Shown here: positions 16,072 to 32,637 of the stretch, piece after piece | Numbering within the stretch: position 1 is the stretch's first letter | How the letters are laid out: each line of letters begins with the position of its first letter | Assembly: GCF_000980895.1 (NCBI RefSeq) | Contig: NZ_LAZX01000087.1 | Span: forward strand, 62,001-126,000 | Length of the DNA: 64,000 bases | Direction: 5' to 3' | From: Sphingomonas sp. Ag1 | GTDB taxonomy: Bacteria > Pseudomonadota > Alphaproteobacteria > Sphingomonadales > Sphingomonadaceae | Translations under genes and position numbers: made by a program | The notes under the pieces: generated by a model | Told to the model about the DNA's origin: nothing | What the model saw: only the letters and a program-made list of their open reading frames with translations | The model's database searches: none

Positions 16072-16114
16072 TGTCACCTTTAACCTTTCGCCTTCAATCG
16101 CTAGATCGGGGGCA

Positions 16115-16651
16115 ATGGCGCGTTCCTCCCGATCCAACGACTGGGGCTTTCCCCGCTGGCGCAGTTATGGCGCATCCCGTGAAGCGACTGCCGTGCGGCT
16201 GTGCGACCGGCATGGCTGTGACGAGCCGGGCAATTGCCCCGCCCCCAAATCCCCCAACAGCCCCGAACGCTGGTATTTCTGCCAGACGCATGCGGCGGAA
16301 TATAACCGCGGCTGGAATTACTTCGAAGGGCTGGACGCCGAGGAAGCGGCGGCGCGCGAACAGGCCGAGCGGCGCGATGCGTCGGGCTATGAGCAATCGC
16401 GCTACCAGAGCTGGGCGGGATCGGGCGACGGCAGCCGATCGCGCGACGAGATGCGCGCGCTGGAGGTGCTGGAGCTGGAGACGGACGCGACGTTCGACGA
16501 CGTGCGGCTGGCGTGGCGTCGGCTGGCCAAGACCAACCATCCCGATGTGCGCCCGGGCGACGCGGAGGCGGCCAAGCGCTTTCAGGCGATCCAGGCGGCC
16601 TATGAGGTGCTGCGCACCGCCGAGGAACGGCGGACCTGGAAGCCGGCGTGA
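16115..16651 (+). CDS. J-domain protein with an N-terminal cysteine-rich segment
   Basis: 178 residues. The C-terminal 65 or so form a J domain: ALEVLELETDATFDDVRLAWRRLAKTNHPD, with the essential HPD near residue 147, then AKRFQAIQAAYEVL. J proteins stimulate DnaK ATPase. The N-terminal half has cysteines and histidines (RLCDRHGCDEPGNCPAP and YFCQTHAAEYNRGWNY) that could bind zinc, followed by an acidic and glutamine-rich linker. The start is the ATG at 16115, immediately after the RNase P RNA; the longer frame upstream crosses that RNA gene. It overlaps the next gene by 4 bases. Confidence 0.85.
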   Translation: MARSSRSNDWGFPRWRSYGASREATAVRLCDRHGCDEPGNCPAPKSPNSPERWYFCQTHAAEYNRGWNYFEGLDAEEAAAREQAERRDASGYEQSRYQSWAGSGDGSRSRDEMRALEVLELETDATFDDVRLAWRRLAKTNHPDVRPGDAEAAKRFQAIQAAYEVLRTAEERRTWKPA

Positions 16652-16968
16652 AACGCGCAAAGTCCAACTGGACCGATGCGGTGCTGGTGTGCGCCAAATG
16701 CTCCCGCAAGGTCGACGGCGGCTTTGGCGAGAAGGGGCGCGACGGGCTGGCCAAGGCGCTGCGGCGCGAGCCGGGGTTCGGCAAGAAGCGCAAGGCGCGG
16801 GTCGGCGTGGTCGAGGTGAAATGCCTTGGCCTGTGCCCGAAGAATGCGGTGACGGTGGTGGATACGCGCCGGCCGGGCGAGTGGCTGGTGGTGGCGCCGG
16901 GCGAGGATGTCGCGGCGCTGGCCGGACGGTTCGCGGCGCCGGACGGGCCGGATCAGGCGGAGCGCTGA
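16648..16968 (+). CDS. Small thioredoxin-fold 2Fe-2S ferredoxin-like protein
   Basis: 106 residues. The cysteine pattern C15-x2-C18 near the start and KCLGLCPKN near residue 60 resembles the thioredoxin-like 2Fe-2S ferredoxins ((2Fe-2S) ferredoxin domain proteins related to the NuoE fold). The electron partner is unknown. A GTG start at 16648 overlaps the stop of the J-domain gene, suggesting coupled translation and perhaps a joint role in cluster or protein maintenance; that link is only positional. The C-terminus ends in a variable acidic tail. Confidence 0.8.
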   Translation: MKRAKSNWTDAVLVCAKCSRKVDGGFGEKGRDGLAKALRREPGFGKKRKARVGVVEVKCLGLCPKNAVTVVDTRRPGEWLVVAPGEDVAALAGRFAAPDGPDQAER

Positions 16969-17015
16969 CGCCCCGTCGAGGGCGCCGCGCCGCCTGATCC
17001 TGCCGCGGGGAGTGC

Positions 17016-17408
17016 CTAGGCGGCGAGGGGGCCGGCGTCGACGGGGAAGGTCTTGCCCGTCTGCTTGTCCAGCCCGCGCGCGACCCAGGTATCGAGCACC
17101 AGCGCGCCGACGACAAAGGCCAGCGTGCCCCAGGCGGCGCGGTTCTTCGGGCTGTTGCGGACGGCGGCGCCGGCGGCGGCGATATCCATGACGTCCCCGG
17201 CGGCGCGGTTCCAGACATTGGTGGCGACGGCGGGGGCGGCGAGCAGGTTGGCGCCGGCGAGCAATTCGCGTGCGCCGAATGCCTTGACCAATGTCTCATG
17301 CCCCTCGGCATCGAGCGAGCGCGTGATCCGCCGCGCCGCGACCAGCTCCGCCACGCCGAGCGCGATTGAGAACAGGCCGAGGCCGAAGCCTAACTTCTTG
17401 TAATCCAT
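17016..17408 (-). CDS. Small predicted membrane protein, hypothetical
   Basis: 130 residues beginning MDYKKLGFGLGLFSIALGVAEL, which gives an N-terminal hydrophobic helix. Further hydrophobic stretches lie near residues 50-65 and 92-108 (AAWGTLAFVVGALVLDTWVA). The segment GFGLGLFSIALGVAELVAARRITR is seen in cyclase/dehydrase-associated or DUF4267-like small proteins of alphaproteobacteria, but I cannot name the family firmly. The start at 17408 is chosen because GGAGATTA stands just before that ATG; the longer frame adds 40 unconvincing residues. It is convergent with the preceding plus-strand genes. Confidence 0.7.
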   Translation of the reverse strand: MDYKKLGFGLGLFSIALGVAELVAARRITRSLDAEGHETLVKAFGARELLAGANLLAAPAVATNVWNRAAGDVMDIAAAGAAVRNSPKNRAAWGTLAFVVGALVLDTWVARGLDKQTGKTFPVDAGPLAA

Positions 17409-17526
17409 GTTAATCTCCGAAGGCTGGGGCGTGGGACAGGGCCAACGGAGGGCGATCGCGGTGGTTCCGCTGACGATGGCGTTCGGGTGATTTCGACGCG
17501 GCGCATGGATCAGTGGGAGGTTGAAC

Positions 17527-25953: not shown

Positions 25954-27327
25954 TCAGCCCTCTGCGCCGTCTAGGCGGGCGAGAAGGCGCCCGAGGCGGC
26001 CGCGTTTGTAGGCGAGTGCCTGGTAGACGTAGAGGCTGGCGGCGGCCCAGCGGGTGTAGATCCACGGCTGGTTCAGGCGCCTGGCGAGCCATGCCATGCG
26101 GTGGCTCCAGCGCGCGATCGCGGCGCGGGTGCGGTAGATGGCGCGGCGGCGGGGCGGGTGGTCCGTAGCGCGGGGCGCGACGCGCTTTACCGGCGTGACG
26201 CGGCGTTTCTGCCAGGTGAGGCGATACGCCAGCCCCTCACGACGCTGGCGAAAGCCGGCGGCCTGCGTGCCGGCAATGAAATCCGCATCAACGTCCGTCA
26301 GCGCGAGACGGCCGTCGGTGATGGCGGCGGCGATGCGCGCCGCAATCTCAGGCGAACGGACGATCACCACATTGGTACCGCGGCCGTCGGAGGAATAGGG
26401 CTCCACCCAGGCGTCCCCGAAGGAGACATCGGCACATTCGGCCACGACGTCATCGCACGCATCGCAGGCGCTGTTCTGAAAGAAGCCGGCGCCCCAATCG
26501 CCATCGGCGAGGTGGAACCAGTCCTGCCAGCGGGCCGTGCCATCATCGAGCGTCAGGTGCGCGGTGTACCAATTGGCGGGGCGATCGGGATCCTTGCGGC
26601 GATACTCGACCGCGCGCACGGTGTCGCGCTCAACCCCCAGCTGCCAGGCGAAACTGTCGACAAAGGCGGCGCTTTTCATATGACCACAGAACAGGCCGAG
26701 AAGATGGGTGATGCGGTCGTTCAGGACGGGATCCTGCTCCCGCAGCAGGCTGACCGCCTTGATGAAGCAAGGCACGCCGACGATTGCGTAGCGGCCGGGG
26801 GTAACGCGGATCTCGGCCAGAACCTCCGCCAGATCGACGGGATAGTAGCGCGAGCGCGCCCCCTCCAGGATCTGATCGGCGGTGCGCGATATGCGGTAAT
26901 GGAACAGGCGATCGCCCGTTGACGGGATGACGTGCGCGACGCCGTCGATTGCCCCGGAAGCAAGCAGGTCGGCGGCGACCCAGCTGACCATGCCGCCGGA
27001 GCTGCCGCGCTCCCGAAAAGGCGGCTGATCGGCGTGGCCCACATAATTGGCCTCGTAGCGGCCGAGGCGGGGATCGTGATGCGCGGCGGGGAAGCGGGCG
27101 AGGGCGAGTTGATCCTCGTCGCGGGCGGCGGGCGAGAAGGGGCAGGTGGCCGCAAAGGCGGCGGGCGGCGGGGCGTGGCCGGCTTCGTGATCCGTCAGCG
27201 TGGCGGTGCTTGGCTTGCGCTGGCCGTAGCGGTCCCATGTCATGCCGCGGGTCGCGCAGCCACCGCAGCCGATGCACAGGCCGGATTCGACCATGTCGGC
27301 GGGGGTGAGCGCCTCAGGCGAGGGCAT
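25954..27327 (-). CDS. FrhB-type (coenzyme F420 hydrogenase beta-like) iron-sulfur flavoprotein
   Basis: 457 residues. The N-terminal cluster motif GLCIGCGGCATRGM with a further Cys in FAATCPFSP suits a 4Fe-4S centre. Next come the FrhB N-domain (GSSGGMVSWVAADLL near residue 110) and C-domain (IVGVPCFIKAVSLL, LGLFCGHMKS, CDACDDVVAECADVSFGDAW). In bacteria this family often lies beside polysaccharide pyruvyltransferases in exopolysaccharide loci. The electron acceptor and the reaction here are unknown, and F420 itself is not implied. The start at 27327 (MPSPEALTPADMVESGLCIGCGGC) overlaps the pyruvyltransferase gene end by 14 bases. A basic C-terminal tail of about 90 residues with an aromatic segment follows the core. 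Confidence 0.85.
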   Translation of the reverse strand: MPSPEALTPADMVESGLCIGCGGCATRGMTWDRYGQRKPSTATLTDHEAGHAPPPAAFAATCPFSPAARDEDQLALARFPAAHHDPRLGRYEANYVGHADQPPFRERGSSGGMVSWVAADLLASGAIDGVAHVIPSTGDRLFHYRISRTADQILEGARSRYYPVDLAEVLAEIRVTPGRYAIVGVPCFIKAVSLLREQDPVLNDRITHLLGLFCGHMKSAAFVDSFAWQLGVERDTVRAVEYRRKDPDRPANWYTAHLTLDDGTARWQDWFHLADGDWGAGFFQNSACDACDDVVAECADVSFGDAWVEPYSSDGRGTNVVIVRSPEIAARIAAAITDGRLALTDVDADFIAGTQAAGFRQRREGLAYRLTWQKRRVTPVKRVAPRATDHPPRRRAIYRTRAAIARWSHRMAWLARRLNQPWIYTRWAAASLYVYQALAYKRGRLGRLLARLDGAEG

Positions 27328-28411
27328 GATCAAGGAAGCGCGCCGAGCTGGCCCGCTCCGTCGCGAGGCGATCGGGCAGGCCGGCGGGGAGGGCGCCGAG
27401 GCGGTCGGCGAAATCATCGTTGCTCACCGCCGCCGTGACGAGGTGCCGTTCGAGGCCAAGCATGTTGGTGAGATCCTGCACCTTGTTGCGGCGATAGGGT
27501 GAGGCGGCGCAGACGAACGGGCGGTGGTGTCGGATCGCAAAGACGCAGCCGTGGAAGAAATTGGTCGCGACTGCGGCGGCACCGGCGAACAGAGCGGAAA
27601 ATTCGGCCGGGCCGGCATCGATCCTGCCCTCGTCCGCGATCGGGCTGGGGTAGCCTACCGCGACCAGGCGGGTGTCGCTGCGATCGGCCCAGCGCCGCAG
27701 CTGCGCGGTGTACCAGTCGGGGAAGCTGTGGCCGTAGATGAGGGCGTAGCGGCCCGGACCTGAGGCTGCAGCGTCGGGAATGACGCCGGGAAACTGGAGG
27801 CAGGGATCGAGCACGAGGGGCGGGCCGGCCGCAGCCTTCCCCCGGTCCGCGGCAAGCGGGGCGAGCAGGGCGCGGCTGTTCTCGTCGCGCACCGACAGCG
27901 CATCGAAACGGCGAAGTCGATCGAGCCACGGGCCGTCGATGCCGTCGGCCACGTCGTGGTTGCCGACGCTGGCGGCGTAGGAGACGAGCCGATCGGTGGG
28001 GAGGCGATCACCGAAGAAGATCGGCTCGCCCGAATACCAGGGGTGGCGGAAGTTCCAGACTTCATCGCTGCCGACCACCACGGCGTCATAATGCGGGGCC
28101 TGCGCCGGGTTTCGCAGCGGGAAGGGCGGCGACAGGGGCAAGGCGTCTACCGCGGCGATCAAGGCGCGGGTCTTGCGGCCAAGCGCCGCGAAATGTCGCG
28201 GATCGGTGCGCGTCGGCAGGGTCGGCTGAAAGGCGTTGCGCGCCTCGCGCCATTCCACGCAGCGCGAGCGGTGATCCAGCAGTTCGGCATCCAGCCCGCG
28301 CGCGCGCAGCCCCTCCACCAGGCAGCGCGCCTGCCAGTAGGAGCCGTAGTTGATCGAGCGGTGGAAGGTCAGGACACCGACCTTGCGTGGACCTCCCGGG
28401 CGCGCCGCCAT
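27314..28411 (-). CDS. Polysaccharide pyruvyl transferase family protein
   Basis: 365 residues. The GT-B-like PS_pyruv_trans fold is suggested by the N-terminal VGVLTFHRSINYGSYWQARCL (H/N-x-G-S/N-x-L/W), the central YDAVVVGSDEVWNF with RLVSYAASVGN, and the C-terminal AVATNFFHGCVFAIRHHRPFVCA. These enzymes add ketal-linked pyruvate to sugars using phosphoenolpyruvate, giving surface glycans negative charge. The start at 28411 (MAARPGGPRKVGVLTF) is chosen because upstream codons overlap the oxidoreductase gene. It ends 14 bases inside the FrhB-type gene. The co-occurrence of the two families is common in exopolysaccharide loci. Confidence 0.87.
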   Translation of the reverse strand: MAARPGGPRKVGVLTFHRSINYGSYWQARCLVEGLRARGLDAELLDHRSRCVEWREARNAFQPTLPTRTDPRHFAALGRKTRALIAAVDALPLSPPFPLRNPAQAPHYDAVVVGSDEVWNFRHPWYSGEPIFFGDRLPTDRLVSYAASVGNHDVADGIDGPWLDRLRRFDALSVRDENSRALLAPLAADRGKAAAGPPLVLDPCLQFPGVIPDAAASGPGRYALIYGHSFPDWYTAQLRRWADRSDTRLVAVGYPSPIADEGRIDAGPAEFSALFAGAAAVATNFFHGCVFAIRHHRPFVCAASPYRRNKVQDLTNMLGLERHLVTAAVSNDDFADRLGALPAGLPDRLATERASSARFLDHALA

Positions 28412-28416
28412 GCCGT

Positions 28417-29391
28417 CTAGCGCCCGTAGATGAGGTCGAGCACCTCCGCGGAGCGGGCGAAATGATCCGCGGCGGGATCGTAACGGTGGCTGTGCGCAAG
28501 CTGCTGCGCCCAGGCGGCGGCGGCACGGCCGCCCCAATCATCCGGCCCGTCGGTCAGGCGGTGAGTGGCGGTTCCGGTGAAATGATCGGCGGTAAAATCA
28601 TAGAAGCTGCCGCCGACATTGCGGAAGCCAGCCCCACCCTGCGTGCCGTAGAAATCGGCGGCGATCACCGCATCCTGCCCCGCGTGGAGGCGCCAGGAAC
28701 AGGTGAGGCGGACGGTGGCGCCGCCCGCGGTGAAGCTGGCGCTGGCATAATCCTCCACCGAGCCGGGGTGGAGCGGCTGTCCCCCGGCATAAAGCGCGGC
28801 ATGGGCGTCGCTCGCCTTGGGGAAGCCGAGCGTCCAGAGCGCGAGATCGACGAGGTGGACGCCGAGGTCGACCACACAGCCGCCGCCCGACTGGACCGGA
28901 TCGTAGAACCACGGCTTGTCCGGGCCGTAGGCATTGTGGAACGTGAGATCGACCGCGAAGATATCGCCCAGCGTGCCCTCCCGGATCAGGCCGGCGATCG
29001 CCTCCATCCCCGCGGTGTGGCGATACGACAGGTCGACGCCGAGCAGCCGGTCGGCGGCGCGGGCGGCGGCGATCACTGCATCCACCTCCGCTGCGGTTCG
29101 GCCGAGCGGTTTCTGGCAGAAGACGGCCTTCCCCGCCCGAAGCGCCTGGATCGACTGATCGGCATGAAGCGCGCTTGGAGTCGCGATGACCACGCCGTCG
29201 ATGTCGAGCGCGAGCATGTCGTCGAGCGTGTCGACGATGCGGATCGTGGGGGCGATGGTGGCCGCCTCCGCGATACATTCGGGCGAGGGGTCGCAGACCG
29301 CAACGGCATCGACCGCCCCCGTCGCCACCATGGCAGCCATGCGGTGCCGGCCGATCCAGCCGGTGCCGAGGAACCCGATACGGGGCTTCAT
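28417..29391 (-). CDS. Gfo/Idh/MocA family NAD(P)-dependent oxidoreductase
   Basis: 324 residues. The Rossmann motif GFLGTGWIGRHRM is at the N-terminus, and the dinucleotide and catalytic region includes the family signature CQKPLGRTAAEVD (the usual E-K-P is Q-K-P here, residues about 91-94). The C-terminal domain contains GGGCVVDLGVHLVDLALWTLG with the conserved D-x-G-x-H-x-x-D motif. Members oxidise, reduce or epimerise sugars and inositols. Within this cluster a role in remodelling a nucleotide-free or glycan-linked sugar is likely but inferred. It lies 11 bases after the glycosidase-like gene and 5 bases before the pyruvyltransferase start, probably in one operon. Confidence 0.92.
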   Translation of the reverse strand: MKPRIGFLGTGWIGRHRMAAMVATGAVDAVAVCDPSPECIAEAATIAPTIRIVDTLDDMLALDIDGVVIATPSALHADQSIQALRAGKAVFCQKPLGRTAAEVDAVIAAARAADRLLGVDLSYRHTAGMEAIAGLIREGTLGDIFAVDLTFHNAYGPDKPWFYDPVQSGGGCVVDLGVHLVDLALWTLGFPKASDAHAALYAGGQPLHPGSVEDYASASFTAGGATVRLTCSWRLHAGQDAVIAADFYGTQGGAGFRNVGGSFYDFTADHFTGTATHRLTDGPDDWGGRAAAAWAQQLAHSHRYDPAADHFARSAEVLDLIYGR

Positions 29392-29402: not shown

Positions 29403-30344
29403 TCAGGCCGAGGCGACGAGCTTGAGCGGCGAGGCCTGACCGGCGCCGGACTGCGCGGGCGCGTAGCGATCGATCATCTCGGCACAGAAATCAGCGAACA
29501 TCTGCGGATCGCGCGCCGGGCTGGTGTGATGCGGCTGGACGCCGAGATGCTCGGGCGTGAAGCAGAAGGTGACGGTTACCTCGAACTCGGCCAGCGCCTC
29601 CATCTGGCGGTCGAACCAGTCGAGCGCATTGGGGCGGAAGCGATCGGCCCAGCTGAGCCCGGTACGCAACTTGCGCGTGCCCAGCCGCTTCAGCCAGTCG
29701 ACGGCCTCGTCTAACCGCGGATCCTCGAAGTGGAACCATTGCATCAGGCCCATGTCGGCCGCGTGCCGGGCATAGACGTCGAGCGCCGGCTTTGGCGTCC
29801 CGTCCTCGCGGATCAGGCCCATGTAGAAATGGCGGTAATAGCTGGAGCCTTCCGCCTCGCGGTGGCGGGTGGTCGCGCCCCATGCCTGGGGCAGATCGAA
29901 CAGCGAATACCAATAGACGTTGGGCACGCGGCCGATCAGCAACTCGGCGGTCTTTTCGACGCCAAAGACCTGCACTTCCTCTGCCCCGAACGAGCCCACG
30001 CCGACCTCGGTCACCCAGATCGGCTTGTCGGTCACGACCTCCTCGATCTCGGCGATCTTCTTGGGCCAGTCGTGGATCGACCACAGGTTCCAGTCGAGCG
30101 GGAAGCCGTGCACGGCGATGACGTCCACCGCATCAAGCGCGCCATGCGCCCGCATCCGGTTCACCCATTGCGGGTCGATCGGCGACATGCCGCCCAGCAC
30201 GCGGGTGACCGCCGGATTGATCGCGGCGATAGCATTGCCGGCGCGGATCACGTGATCGGCATAGGACGACCAGTCGGGATCGATCTCCGGATCCCAGTGC
30301 GATTTGTTGTTCGGCTCATTCCAGATCATCGCCGCTTCGATCAC
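29403..30344 (-). CDS. Clan-A glycosidase-like protein with circularly permuted motif order
   Basis: 313 residues. The first segment holds the clan GH-A acid/base motif I-W-N-E-P (E10). Then come DVIAVHGF (near 74) and IWVTEVGVGSFG with the likely nucleophile E113. VYWYSLFDLPQAWG and GLIREDGTPKPALDV then follow as the usual last barrel strand and end. Unusually, what normally forms the first three strands comes after this: LRTGLSWADRFRPNALDWF, VTVTFCFTPEHLGVQPHHTSP and FADFCAEMIDRY (residues about 218-295). A normal GH39-like enzyme has those before the N-E-P motif. The start is a GTG overlapping the methyltransferase stop (GTGA), so the gene truly begins near N-E-P. No signal peptide is seen. 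The substrate is unknown; a xylosidase-like annotation would be guesswork. Confidence 0.8.
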   Translation of the reverse strand: MIEAAMIWNEPNNKSHWDPEIDPDWSSYADHVIRAGNAIAAINPAVTRVLGGMSPIDPQWVNRMRAHGALDAVDVIAVHGFPLDWNLWSIHDWPKKIAEIEEVVTDKPIWVTEVGVGSFGAEEVQVFGVEKTAELLIGRVPNVYWYSLFDLPQAWGATTRHREAEGSSYYRHFYMGLIREDGTPKPALDVYARHAADMGLMQWFHFEDPRLDEAVDWLKRLGTRKLRTGLSWADRFRPNALDWFDRQMEALAEFEVTVTFCFTPEHLGVQPHHTSPARDPQMFADFCAEMIDRYAPAQSGAGQASPLKLVASA

Positions 30345-31156
30345 GAACCTGTACCCCCCTTGGCTGGATAGACCGCCGCCGGGCCATGCTGGCCGAACGG
30401 CACCGGTGCGACCCGGCAGAAATAAACGTCACCATCGGCCTGCGCCTCGACGGAGAAGCCGGCTGCGCGCAGCATCGCCTGGCTGCCGGCAGCGTTGGGC
30501 GCCCACCAGTTCGTCCAGTCGCCGGCGAACTGCCGTTCGATGAAATGCATCTTGGGATAGCCGGGCGCGTCGAAGTAGGCGGGCTGGCGATAGGTGCCCG
30601 GTTCGAAGAAGGGGTGATCCTCCGGCACATCGGCGATCTCCGGCGAGCCCTGCTGCAGCGTCTGGAACAGCATGGCGTCGCGCGCGACATGCTCGCGGAT
30701 GAGGTCCAGCGCCAGCAGCGGATGGCGCAGATGGTAGAGGACGCCCATGAAGATCACGAGGTCGAACGTCTCGCCCAGCGCGGCCACGTCATAGACCGAC
30801 AGGTTGCGGAACTCGACGCCGGTGAAGCCGAGCGCATCGGTCGCGAGACGCGCCTGCGCGAGGTAGCGATCGTCGCTGTCGATGCCGACTACCCGCTCCG
30901 CGCCGCGGCGTTTCATCTCCACCGAGTAGAAGCCGGCGTTGCAGCCGATGTCGAGCACGCTCTTGCCGGTGAGATCGGCCGGAACGATCGAGGCGAACCG
31001 CGCGAATTTGTCCGCCGGGTAATTGCCGAGAAAATGATCGGGCGCGGTTGCGACGCCGTTCAGATCGATATTGTGGAACCACGGCGCGAGCGCAGCGATG
31101 CTGCTCCTGAGGGTGTCATACGGTCTTTGATCGTCCGAACGATTGGCTACCGGCAT
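30341..31156 (-). CDS. SAM-dependent methyltransferase (CmoB-like / TIGR04290-like)
   Basis: About 271 residues. The SAM site is KSVLDIGCNAGFYSVEMKRRGA, and ERVVGIDSDDRYLAQARL gives the acidic end of strand 2. The segment PDHFLGNYPADKFARFASIVP before it, and FDLVIFMGVLYHLRHPLLALDLI after it, are like the CmoB/DUF1698 group. From memory this also fits a family (TIGR04290) found next to such glycosidases. The methyl acceptor is unknown. I chose the Met at 31156 (MPVANRSDDQRPY); longer options run into the divergent gene's leader. Its stop overlaps the glycosidase GTG start. Confidence 0.8.
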   Translation of the reverse strand: MPVANRSDDQRPYDTLRSSIAALAPWFHNIDLNGVATAPDHFLGNYPADKFARFASIVPADLTGKSVLDIGCNAGFYSVEMKRRGAERVVGIDSDDRYLAQARLATDALGFTGVEFRNLSVYDVAALGETFDLVIFMGVLYHLRHPLLALDLIREHVARDAMLFQTLQQGSPEIADVPEDHPFFEPGTYRQPAYFDAPGYPKMHFIERQFAGDWTNWWAPNAAGSQAMLRAAGFSVEAQADGDVYFCRVAPVPFGQHGPAAVYPAKGGTGS

Positions 31157-31331
31157 CGCGCCCCCTGGATGTCGGCCCGCGACATGCGGCGCCATGACGA
31201 GTGACGGGCATCTGCACCTGTGCGCAGGCCCCTCGTTTCGCTTAACGAACGGAGTTTGAAGGTGTTCCCGCTGGCCGGCGCGTTGACGCGCGATGGAACC
31301 GGTGGGCGGTCCGCGACATTCGGCTTTGTTG

Positions 31332-32276
31332 ATGGACAACGGCGCCCAGCAATGGATTTCGGCGATGCGCGAGGGCGACTATGCGCGCGCCTGGGCGCTG
31401 TCCGCGCGGGATCTTGCCGCGCGTGATCCGGCAACCCGCGATGACCCGCGGCTGCCCTATCATCAACGTTGGGTGTGGGACGGGCGACCCTTTGACGGGC
31501 GTCATGTGCTGGTGCGATGCTATCACGGGCTGGGAGACACGCTGCAATTTGCCCGCTTCCTGCCGGCGCTCACGTCGCGAGCACGGCGCGTGACGGTGGA
31601 GGCGCCCGAGCGGCTCCATTCGCTGCTGGCCAGTGCCGATCCCGCGGTGACGCTGGCGCCGTTCGACCATGCCGATCCGCTTCCTCCGGCGGAGTGCGAT
31701 ATCGAGATTACCGAGCTTCCCTTCGCCCTGCTATGCCGGCCCGACGTGGTCGCCACCCCCTACCTCAGCGTGATGCCCGATGTCTTGCCGACCGGCGTGA
31801 TCGGGCTGTGCCACCAGGGTGGGGATTGGGATCCGGGACGCTCGTTCGATCCGCTGCTGCTGCGCGGCATCGCGGAGGCGAACCGGTGCGTAACGCTGGT
31901 GCCCGAGGCATCGCCGCTGCCGGTGCTCAATCCCGAGGGCTGCGCCTTCACCATGGAGGAGACCGCCGCACTGGTGGCGGCGTGCGACCTCGTCATCACG
32001 GTGGACACGATGATCGCGCATCTTGCCGGTGCGCTGGGGCGGCCGACCTGGCTGTTGCTGAAGGCGGAGCCGGACTGGCGCTGGAACCCGGCGGCGACCG
32101 TCACCCCCTGGTATCCCAGCATGCGCCTGTTCGTGCAGCAATCGCCCGGCGATTGGGCGGGGGTGATCGCCCGCGTCCACGCCGCGCTGGTGGCGCGCAA
32201 CGCCCCCCTCATCAACAACGAAAGGTCGGACCATGGCAACGATTGCGGCACCGTCGGTTCCCGTCTCCTGGGGTGA
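31332..32276 (+). CDS. Glycosyltransferase family 9-like protein
   Basis: 314 residues. The N-terminal half has DGRHVLVRCYHGLGDTLQFARFLPAL, the G-L-G-D-x-L-Q-F motif of GT9 and TPR-linked GT41/GT9-like enzymes. The C-terminal half has DLVITVDTMIAHLAGALGRPTWLLL, the nucleotide-sugar-site signature of heptosyltransferase folds, and PEPDW/PTWL-type contacts. No signal peptide is seen. It probably transfers a sugar to a cell-surface glycan. It is divergent from the methyltransferase by about 175 bases and overlaps the next gene by 44 bases. The start is the ATG at 31332, with an in-frame ATG at 31293 as an alternative. Confidence 0.82.
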   Translation: MDNGAQQWISAMREGDYARAWALSARDLAARDPATRDDPRLPYHQRWVWDGRPFDGRHVLVRCYHGLGDTLQFARFLPALTSRARRVTVEAPERLHSLLASADPAVTLAPFDHADPLPPAECDIEITELPFALLCRPDVVATPYLSVMPDVLPTGVIGLCHQGGDWDPGRSFDPLLLRGIAEANRCVTLVPEASPLPVLNPEGCAFTMEETAALVAACDLVITVDTMIAHLAGALGRPTWLLLKAEPDWRWNPAATVTPWYPSMRLFVQQSPGDWAGVIARVHAALVARNAPLINNERSDHGNDCGTVGSRLLG

Positions 32277-32637
32277 ATTGCTCGACAAGATCACGATCCT
32301 GGAGATCAAGCGCGACCGGATCGCCCGTGCCGAGGCGCGGGAGAATGTGCTGCGTGAATATCGCCTGCTGCGGGCGATCGGCGCCCAGGTGCTGAACCGC
32401 AGCGGAGTCGCCGCGCTGGTCGAGGCGCTGAAGCGGGTCAACGAGACGCTTTGGGAAATCGAAGACGCGATCCGCGAACAGGAGGCGGCGCGCGATTTTG
32501 GCGCCGAGTTCGTCCGTCTGGCGCGCGCGGTGTACCAGCGCAACGACGAGCGGGCGGCGATCAAGCGCGAGATCAACCGGGCGCTGGAATCCGACCTGAT
32601 CGAGGAAAAGAGCTACGCCGCAAGCGTGGCTGCGTAG
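32233..32637 (+). CDS. DUF6165-like small protein
   Basis: 134 residues. After a short N-terminus it has VSWGELLDKITILEIKRDRI, followed by long helices (ENVLREYRLLRAI, LVEALKRVNETLWEIEDAIREQEAAR, FVRLARAVYQRNDERAAIKREINRALES). From memory this is the DUF6165 pattern, seen beside glycosyltransferases; the role is unknown. The region is likely a helical coiled domain and soluble. It starts at 32233 within the 3' end of the GT9 gene (44-base overlap), indicating coupled translation. Naming the family is moderately certain, the function is not. Confidence 0.75.
   Translation: MATIAAPSVPVSWGELLDKITILEIKRDRIARAEARENVLREYRLLRAIGAQVLNRSGVAALVEALKRVNETLWEIEDAIREQEAARDFGAEFVRLARAVYQRNDERAAIKREINRALESDLIEEKSYAASVAA

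Follow-up and report, generated by a model that had tools for sequence, protein, structure and literature searches.

A glycosidase gene whose motifs stand in the wrong order along the chain can be read as a circularly permuted barrel or as a truncated gene with a wrongly placed start, and the question raised by the locus described here is which of the two it is. The gene lies in the window, the whole stretch of DNA that was analysed: 64,000 nt of Sphingomonas sp. Ag1 (assembly GCF_000980895.1, contig NZ_LAZX01000087.1, positions 62,001 to 126,000, forward strand). Numbered within the window, the gene and its parts are:

29403..30344, minus strand: whole gene of the proposed circularly permuted glycosidase; 313 aa, GTG start
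29784..30344, minus strand: N-terminal part, residues 1-187, matching strands 4-8, which are normally C-terminal; aligns to PslG 132-321 and to normal-order relatives
30315..30317, minus strand: codon of E10, predicted acid/base, in the N-E-P motif after strand 4; invariant in 62/62 aligned members
30006..30008, minus strand: codon of E113, predicted nucleophile, strand 7; invariant in 62/62 aligned members
29751..29783, minus strand: linker, residues 188-198, from old C-terminus to old N-terminus; best rotation point 186-199 in 6/6 comparisons
29460..29750, minus strand: C-terminal part, residues 199-295, matching strands 1-3, which are normally N-terminal; aligns to PslG 26-129

Enzymes of clan GH-A carry an acid/base glutamate, preceded by asparagine, at the end of barrel strand 4, and a nucleophile glutamate at the end of strand 7; their strands usually run from 1 to 8 along the chain, a usage and not a formal criterion. 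In the window protein N9-E10-P11, part of W8-N9-E10-P11, follows a strand at residues 2-7, and E113 (within WVTEVGVGSF) sits in a strand at 109-114 that is strand 7 by alignment to normal-order relatives; GLIREDGTPKPA occupies residues 176-187. An earlier note on this DNA had placed the N-E-P motif at residue 10, the nucleophile at E113 and a barrel-ending segment after them, and all three are there. It had also put the displaced strands at about 218-295: the motifs LRTGLSWADRFRPN, VTVTFCFTPEHLGVQP and FADFCAEMIDRY do lie in the last third of the protein, but the displaced segment opens earlier, at residue ~199, with strand 1 (GLMQWFHFED). The chain runs through strands 4-8 and then 1-3, not through the usual 1-8.

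In the reading preferred here, to which we give a probability of about 0.88, the product is a clan GH-A-type glycosidase that has undergone circular permutation in nature. A short linker would bridge helix 8 and strand 1, where an ordinary barrel has its two ends, and the chain would instead begin and end at a break between helix 3 and strand 4. Read as 4-5-6-7-8-1-2-3, it would still close into the usual (beta/alpha)8 barrel, in which E10, the acid/base, belongs to strand 4 and E113, the nucleophile, to strand 7. The permuted protein would work like a clan GH-A glycosidase and is homologous to a normal-order domain described below; it is not assigned to GH39. The beta-sandwich domain that stands beside the barrel in PslG and other GH39 enzymes (C-terminal in PslG; excerpts of PMC6933502) is absent from its 313 aa. 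What computation shows is the strand order and how well it is kept, a sister in normal order, and a barrel in the predicted structure.

The order can be followed through PslG of Pseudomonas aeruginosa, a GH39 enzyme with the same type of barrel in normal order. In a phmmer search of the PDB the window protein and PslG aligned as two pieces in exchanged order, PslG 26-129 with query 202-295 (6.8 bits) and PslG 132-321 with query 3-187 (18.6 bits), for 23.0 bits together (E 4.3e-4); a family profile also matched PslG in swapped pieces, at E 3.1e-6. With residue 198 made the first of the query, and everything beyond 296 dropped, the pieces merged into one continuous alignment of query 5-286 to PslG 26-321, at 43.3 bits and E 2.8e-10; beta-xylosidases followed at E 0.0012 or weaker. 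The earlier note had given the opposite order for the GH39 type, and PslG does align in swapped pieces until the rotation is made.

All 297 rotations of residues 1-297 were then scored against six normal-order relatives. The maximum fell with the first residue at 186-199 in all six, at scores of 291-376 versus 208-264 for the native order; among 200 shuffles per target the score never exceeded 76. Rotation, suggested at first for residue 218, does restore a continuous full-length match both to PslG and to the normal-order relatives, but it does so best at 186-199, and the permutation cut is therefore placed in the linker after helix 8. By hhalign, the alignment of the permuted form (A1) and that of the normal-order form (A2) match with probability 99.8 over residues 4-186 only, that is, over strands 4-8, because the remainder is out of order. 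The strand order 4-5-6-7-8-1-2-3 is real, and more than chance. At the level of sequence profiles, Pfam PF11790 (Glyco_hydro_cc) gives a weak match: residues 3-126 align to profile positions 67-187 of 237 at 25.6 bits (gathering cut-off 21) and the rotated protein scores 29.4 bits; the two other permuted members tested, at 15.2 and 15.4 bits, are both below the cut-off. Pfam at E 0.1 gave no match in any of the three intact normal-order domains tested, and NCBIfam gave none for the permuted protein.

How general is the order? Of 591 stretches that fit the pattern in the genome collection, at least 535 code for relatives, the order having been checked in part of these. The best 80 of them and 17 from genome samples, all kept at E 1e-60 or better, make up a set of 97 full-length relatives, and the permuted order is found in 97 of 97; as the set was gathered with a permuted query and is biased to close relatives, the figure speaks for conservation, not for the absence of other orders. 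Homologues collected in this way share the arrangement that had been proposed for the window protein. A frameshift or an assembly artefact was considered and rejected on these numbers, the stretches that encode relatives and the 97 full-length ones that keep the order.

Another perspective supposes that the gene is truncated or its start misread: the true protein would have its own strands 1-3 upstream, and the C-terminal segment would be an unrelated add-on. Indeed, a 28-codon open frame precedes the GTG in the window, and in many loci that frame is longer. Yet 78 of 80 loci have an ATG, GTG or TTG at this very position, and the remaining two have one a codon further upstream (ATG in L053, TTG in L062). 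In 11 of the 80 an in-frame stop lies 10 open codons or fewer ahead of the start (a single codon in L027); in the other loci the frame reaches further up, but there it seems not to be conserved and runs into the methyltransferase gene. Nothing like a second copy of strands 1-3 was found ahead of the permuted gene, and the C-terminal segment itself aligns with strands 1-3 of relatives. With the start codon so widely kept and in-frame stops so near, the start is taken to be real: the GTG at 30344, which overlaps the TGA of the upstream methyltransferase ORF by four bases, is the true beginning of the gene, as the earlier note had argued from the overlap, and what follows it is a permuted barrel and not a truncated one. 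Truncation is hardly credible on this evidence.

Alignment A1 was thinned from the 97 relatives and the window protein to 62 rows with <93% mutual identity. E10, E113, H79, W145, Y146 and W8-N9-P11 are invariant in 62/62 rows. The clan GH-A glutamate pair, kept on strands 4 and 7, suggests a double-displacement retaining mechanism, and the protein would be an active retaining glycosidase or transglycosidase. It might instead be catalytically dead, a binding or scaffold subunit of the cluster enzymes: a degenerate normal-order copy in one genome (G709, locus L111), read by eye, has neither glutamate, so the fold can persist without catalysis. This differs from the permuted members, where both glutamates and the nearby aromatic and histidine residues are invariant in every row, and a dead permuted barrel is improbable.

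AlphaFold2, given 62 family members, models the permuted protein as a (beta/alpha)8 barrel (mean pLDDT 84.9, pTM 0.86) with helices between eight strands: 2-7, 47-50, 75-79, 109-114, 143-146, and then 199-201, 225-231 and 255-261, which are strands 1-3. The barrel spans residues 1-295, the rest of the 313 being a short low-confidence tail; three loops near the active site (11-14, 82-86 and 156-168) have pLDDT <50. VIA-align places model residues 1-296 on a GH20 enzyme barrel (Z 13.5, 243 aligned, rmsd 3.6) and residues 3-295 on a 228-residue designed TIM barrel (Z 13.4, 214 aligned, rmsd 3.7). The closed eight-stranded barrel foreseen by the earlier note is what the prediction gives.

A barrel of this kind could also be completed between chains, the fold being active only as a domain-swapped dimer in which strands 1-3 of one chain fill out the barrel of another. 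The linker between the segments, only ~11 residues long, could point that way, the dimer being otherwise an inferred possibility; however, a single-chain model already reaches pTM 0.86, and helix 8 normally ends near strand 1, so that a short linker is enough. The swapped dimer is very improbable, more so than the dead barrel, and the single-chain permuted barrel is retained.

Searches by fold returned different neighbours for the two orders. Foldseek with the permuted model found varied barrels (best E 1.4e-4, TM 0.38; 23 matches at E 0.001 or better), neither PslG nor GH39 being among the best 50 of 1562 matches; PslG was likewise absent among the best 50 of 984 chains by VIA-align. The aligners being taken to follow chain order, this is expected of a permuted member of the same fold. 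The normal-order sister domain, modelled from seven sequences (pLDDT 79.2, pTM 0.83), had PslG as its first Foldseek match (E 4.2e-15, TM 0.68 by query length, 20% identity), followed by a GH39 enzyme and then by beta-galactosidases and beta-glucosidases; 294 matches reached E 0.001 or better. A profile of the normal-order alignment did not find PslG in the PDB, the best of its six matches being a beta-xylosidase at E 0.11; the link of the sister to PslG therefore rests on fold.

These normal-order relatives come from two samples that overlap, one of 398 genomes searched at E 1e-10 and one of 385 at E 1e-5. They are open frames of ~650-1100 codons that hold both segments in normal succession, with an NAD-epimerase domain after them, and by segment they are ~28-37% identical to the permuted form. 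Such fusions, for example Tistrella mobilis WP_014747405.1 and Rhizobium sp. TAL182 WP_085861061.1, share WNEPNN and W-[IV]-T-E with the permuted protein and lie in a matching cluster, but differ from it in the strand order 1-8 and in the attached epimerase domain. Matches turned up in 25 genomes of the two samples; in 18 of them, counting the window's own genome, the form is the permuted one, in 7 the normal-order one.

The two forms can also meet. One of the 18 genomes (G709) has the permuted gene (L098) and the degenerate normal-order copy fused to an epimerase, in which (L111:1195-1989) IEIAAAPG replaces the W-N-E-P region and WITGTG replaces W-I-T-E, both glutamates apparently being lost. 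Rhizobium sp. CB3090 carries both forms, each with its two glutamates, ~15 kb apart on plasmid NZ_CP121663.1 (L137, L144), so the forms may not be simple substitutes; with this plasmid and the second copy of G709 in view, strict alternation of the two is not claimed. Genome G645, which carries the permuted gene too, has a second, weak normal-order match on contig C73:72101-72805 (L159; E 2.0e-9, 28%, in an 801-codon frame). The fusion gene of Xanthomonas sacchari R1 (L134:11001-11896) matches in two frames and its annotated CDS begins after the first barrel strands; this copy therefore looks broken or mis-sequenced. Sinorhizobium meliloti 1021 has a match on pSymB, where the annotation is empty in the genome collection.

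For a tree, the permuted rows were rotated first, and 20 permuted and 11 normal-order rows were used, without L086 and L069 (missed by the cutting pattern), L104 and L134. A single, very long branch of this unrooted tree parts the permuted from the normal-order rows, with support 100/100; the tree is compatible with one permutation event. PslG and the other members of clan GH-A known to us have the normal order, and the permuted order is on that ground taken to be derived.

To our knowledge, natural circular permutations of whole catalytic barrels are rare. GH70 relative to GH13 is one such permutation of a glycosidase barrel, with non-permuted kin (excerpts of PMC11299179); the GH70 glucansucrases, of clan GH-H, differ from the present case in their alpha-glucan chemistry and in being extracellular multidomain enzymes. 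The deacetylase domain of PgaB (CE4) is another carbohydrate-active barrel with circularly permuted motifs (PMC13366581, in part), but it is a deacetylase and no glycosidase; a domain permutation has been reported for MalS of GH13 (in a passage of PMC10223318). Among the titles and abstract openings listed in a limited search of the open-access literature, no circularly permuted clan GH-A glycosidase was found. The statement that no described family has such an order, made in the earlier note, thus holds for clan GH-A within that search, but is too broad in view of GH70; the clan GH-A case appears to be new. Since each order is represented, among these relatives, in matching clusters, the one as a fusion and the other as a free protein, the two can be compared directly in folding, in stability, in activity and in how the permutation arose. 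Searches that depend on order miss such enzymes; the annotations of permuted relatives read hypothetical protein, glycosyl hydrolase or beta-xylosidase.

The neighbours of the gene in the window are:

30341..31156, minus strand: TIGR04290 family methyltransferase, directly upstream and overlapping; TIGR04290 at 350.1 bits, cut-off 300
28417..29391, minus strand: Gfo/Idh/MocA family oxidoreductase, next gene downstream; PF01408, PF22725; homologue in 68/80 loci
27314..28537, minus strand: polysaccharide pyruvyl transferase family protein; PF04230; homologue in 22/80 loci
25954..27417, minus strand: coenzyme F420 hydrogenase/dehydrogenase beta subunit-like protein; PF04432, PF04422; homologue in 21/80 loci

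The methyltransferase ATG at 31156 is a chosen start within a longer ORF (30341-31339), and the listed ORF start of the pyruvyl transferase is probably too far upstream. Of the 80 loci, whose fetched flanks in some cases stop early at a contig end, 77 have a TIGR04290 methyltransferase homologue as the gene immediately upstream (the exceptions being L019, L020 and L053); homologues of a zinc-binding dehydrogenase are present in 66, of two NAD-epimerase-type SDR proteins in 63 each, of a histidine phosphatase in 62, of a family 4 glycosyltransferase in 61 and of inositol-3-phosphate synthase in 37. In the window's own genome the best SDR match and the inositol-3-phosphate synthase are on other contigs. 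The epimerase domain is a separate protein in the permuted clusters: wherever both SDR genes are present (63 of 63 permuted loci) they are no more than 263 bases apart, which leaves the second SDR without room for a fused barrel. The genes at 31293-32637 (plus strand), which diverge from the operon, encode a DUF6165 protein and a protein resembling family 9 glycosyltransferases; 20/80 loci have a DUF6165 homologue close to the permuted gene.

Five annotated plasmid records of the permuted form, from Sphingomonadales, Rhodobacterales, Rhodospirillales (two) and Hyphomicrobiales, have four glycosyltransferase genes each, with a UDP-glucuronate decarboxylase in 2/5 of the stretches shown. The three annotated normal-order records all have an SDR, the GH-SDR fusion, four glycosyltransferases and UDP-glucuronate decarboxylase, and two of them the TIGR04290 methyltransferase, again in the stretch shown. 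Loci L112-L116 and L132-L134 display a recurring glycosyltransferase/SDR cluster, mostly with the TIGR04290 methyltransferase and in part with inositol-3-phosphate synthase and a TIGR04295 radical SAM protein. The permuted gene marks a biosynthetic cluster for which a text search on the name TIGR04290 found no paper; nor did one for S. meliloti locus tags.

What might a permuted glycosidase do in such a cluster? No signal peptide is visible by eye, the chain opening directly with barrel strand 4; the sister domain shares its chain with an NAD-epimerase, and epimerases of this kind are as a rule cytoplasmic; and a flippase or polymerase is named in 0/5 annotated permuted stretches, which include unnamed proteins. 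These features point to a cytoplasmic biosynthetic role. The enzyme would act in the cytoplasm on an oligosaccharide made by the neighbouring glycosyltransferases, trimming or transferring a sugar, perhaps with an inositol-derived unit, in a pathway perhaps switched on by the EcfG general stress response. This account of the pathway is tentative, and we hold it at distinctly less than even odds.

The same features bear on the view that the protein is a secreted or periplasmic hydrolase like PslG, trimming exopolysaccharide. PslG is the closest solved relative found, glycosyltransferase genes are nearby, and in one of the five annotated loci (L116) the glucan genes mdoG/mdoH lie ~3 kb downstream; but a chain that starts with strand 4 and lacks a visible signal peptide, a sister joined to a normally cytoplasmic partner, and loci naming neither flippase nor polymerase make secretion unlikely. 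A bolder reading would see here the first natural circular permutation in clan GH-A, present in several orders of Alphaproteobacteria, once derived from a normal-order domain that survives as an NAD-epimerase fusion in a matching stress-controlled pathway, and maybe a cytoplasmic transglycosidase that builds, and does not degrade, an inositol-containing oligosaccharide; taken together, these claims are less likely than not, and slightly more doubtful than the pathway by itself.

The suggestion of stress control comes from a motif upstream of the operon:

31244..31268, minus strand: EcfG-type motif GGAAC-N16-CGTT upstream of the methyltransferase and glycosidase genes; exact match, putative function

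GGAAC-N16-CGTT is the published EcfG promoter consensus (excerpts of PMC3892343 and PMC7083833); PMC6599016, in part, gives the motif as GGAAC-N17-20-GTT. The window has two sites versus 0.75 expected, and two or more occur in 15/100 shuffles; taken alone, the count in the window is weak. In 32 of the 80 loci a cluster gene has the exact motif (spacer 16-17) on its own strand and no more than 500 bases upstream: the methyltransferase in 23, an SDR in 8 and the phosphatase in 1. It is absent from that position in the other 48 and in 5/5 plasmid loci with gene positions; seven more loci of the scan, for which gene positions were lacking, stand outside this count. For #2499, a search of the 80 loci with its printed motif, allowing up to three mismatches, came back empty. 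Eight printed motifs, allowed up to 4 mismatches, matched at five scattered places, each time with 4, and this comparison showed no link to the regulon published for S. melonis. Across the 92 loci together (1.25 Mb), 51 sites occur anywhere; ten letter shuffles gave 10-20 and five scrambled motifs 4-17. The loci are related, and the sites hence not independent events. The second exact GGAAC-N16-CGTT of the window, at 17444-17468 (minus strand), lies upstream of a 405-aa ORF (16094-17311; no Pfam match at E 1e-4).
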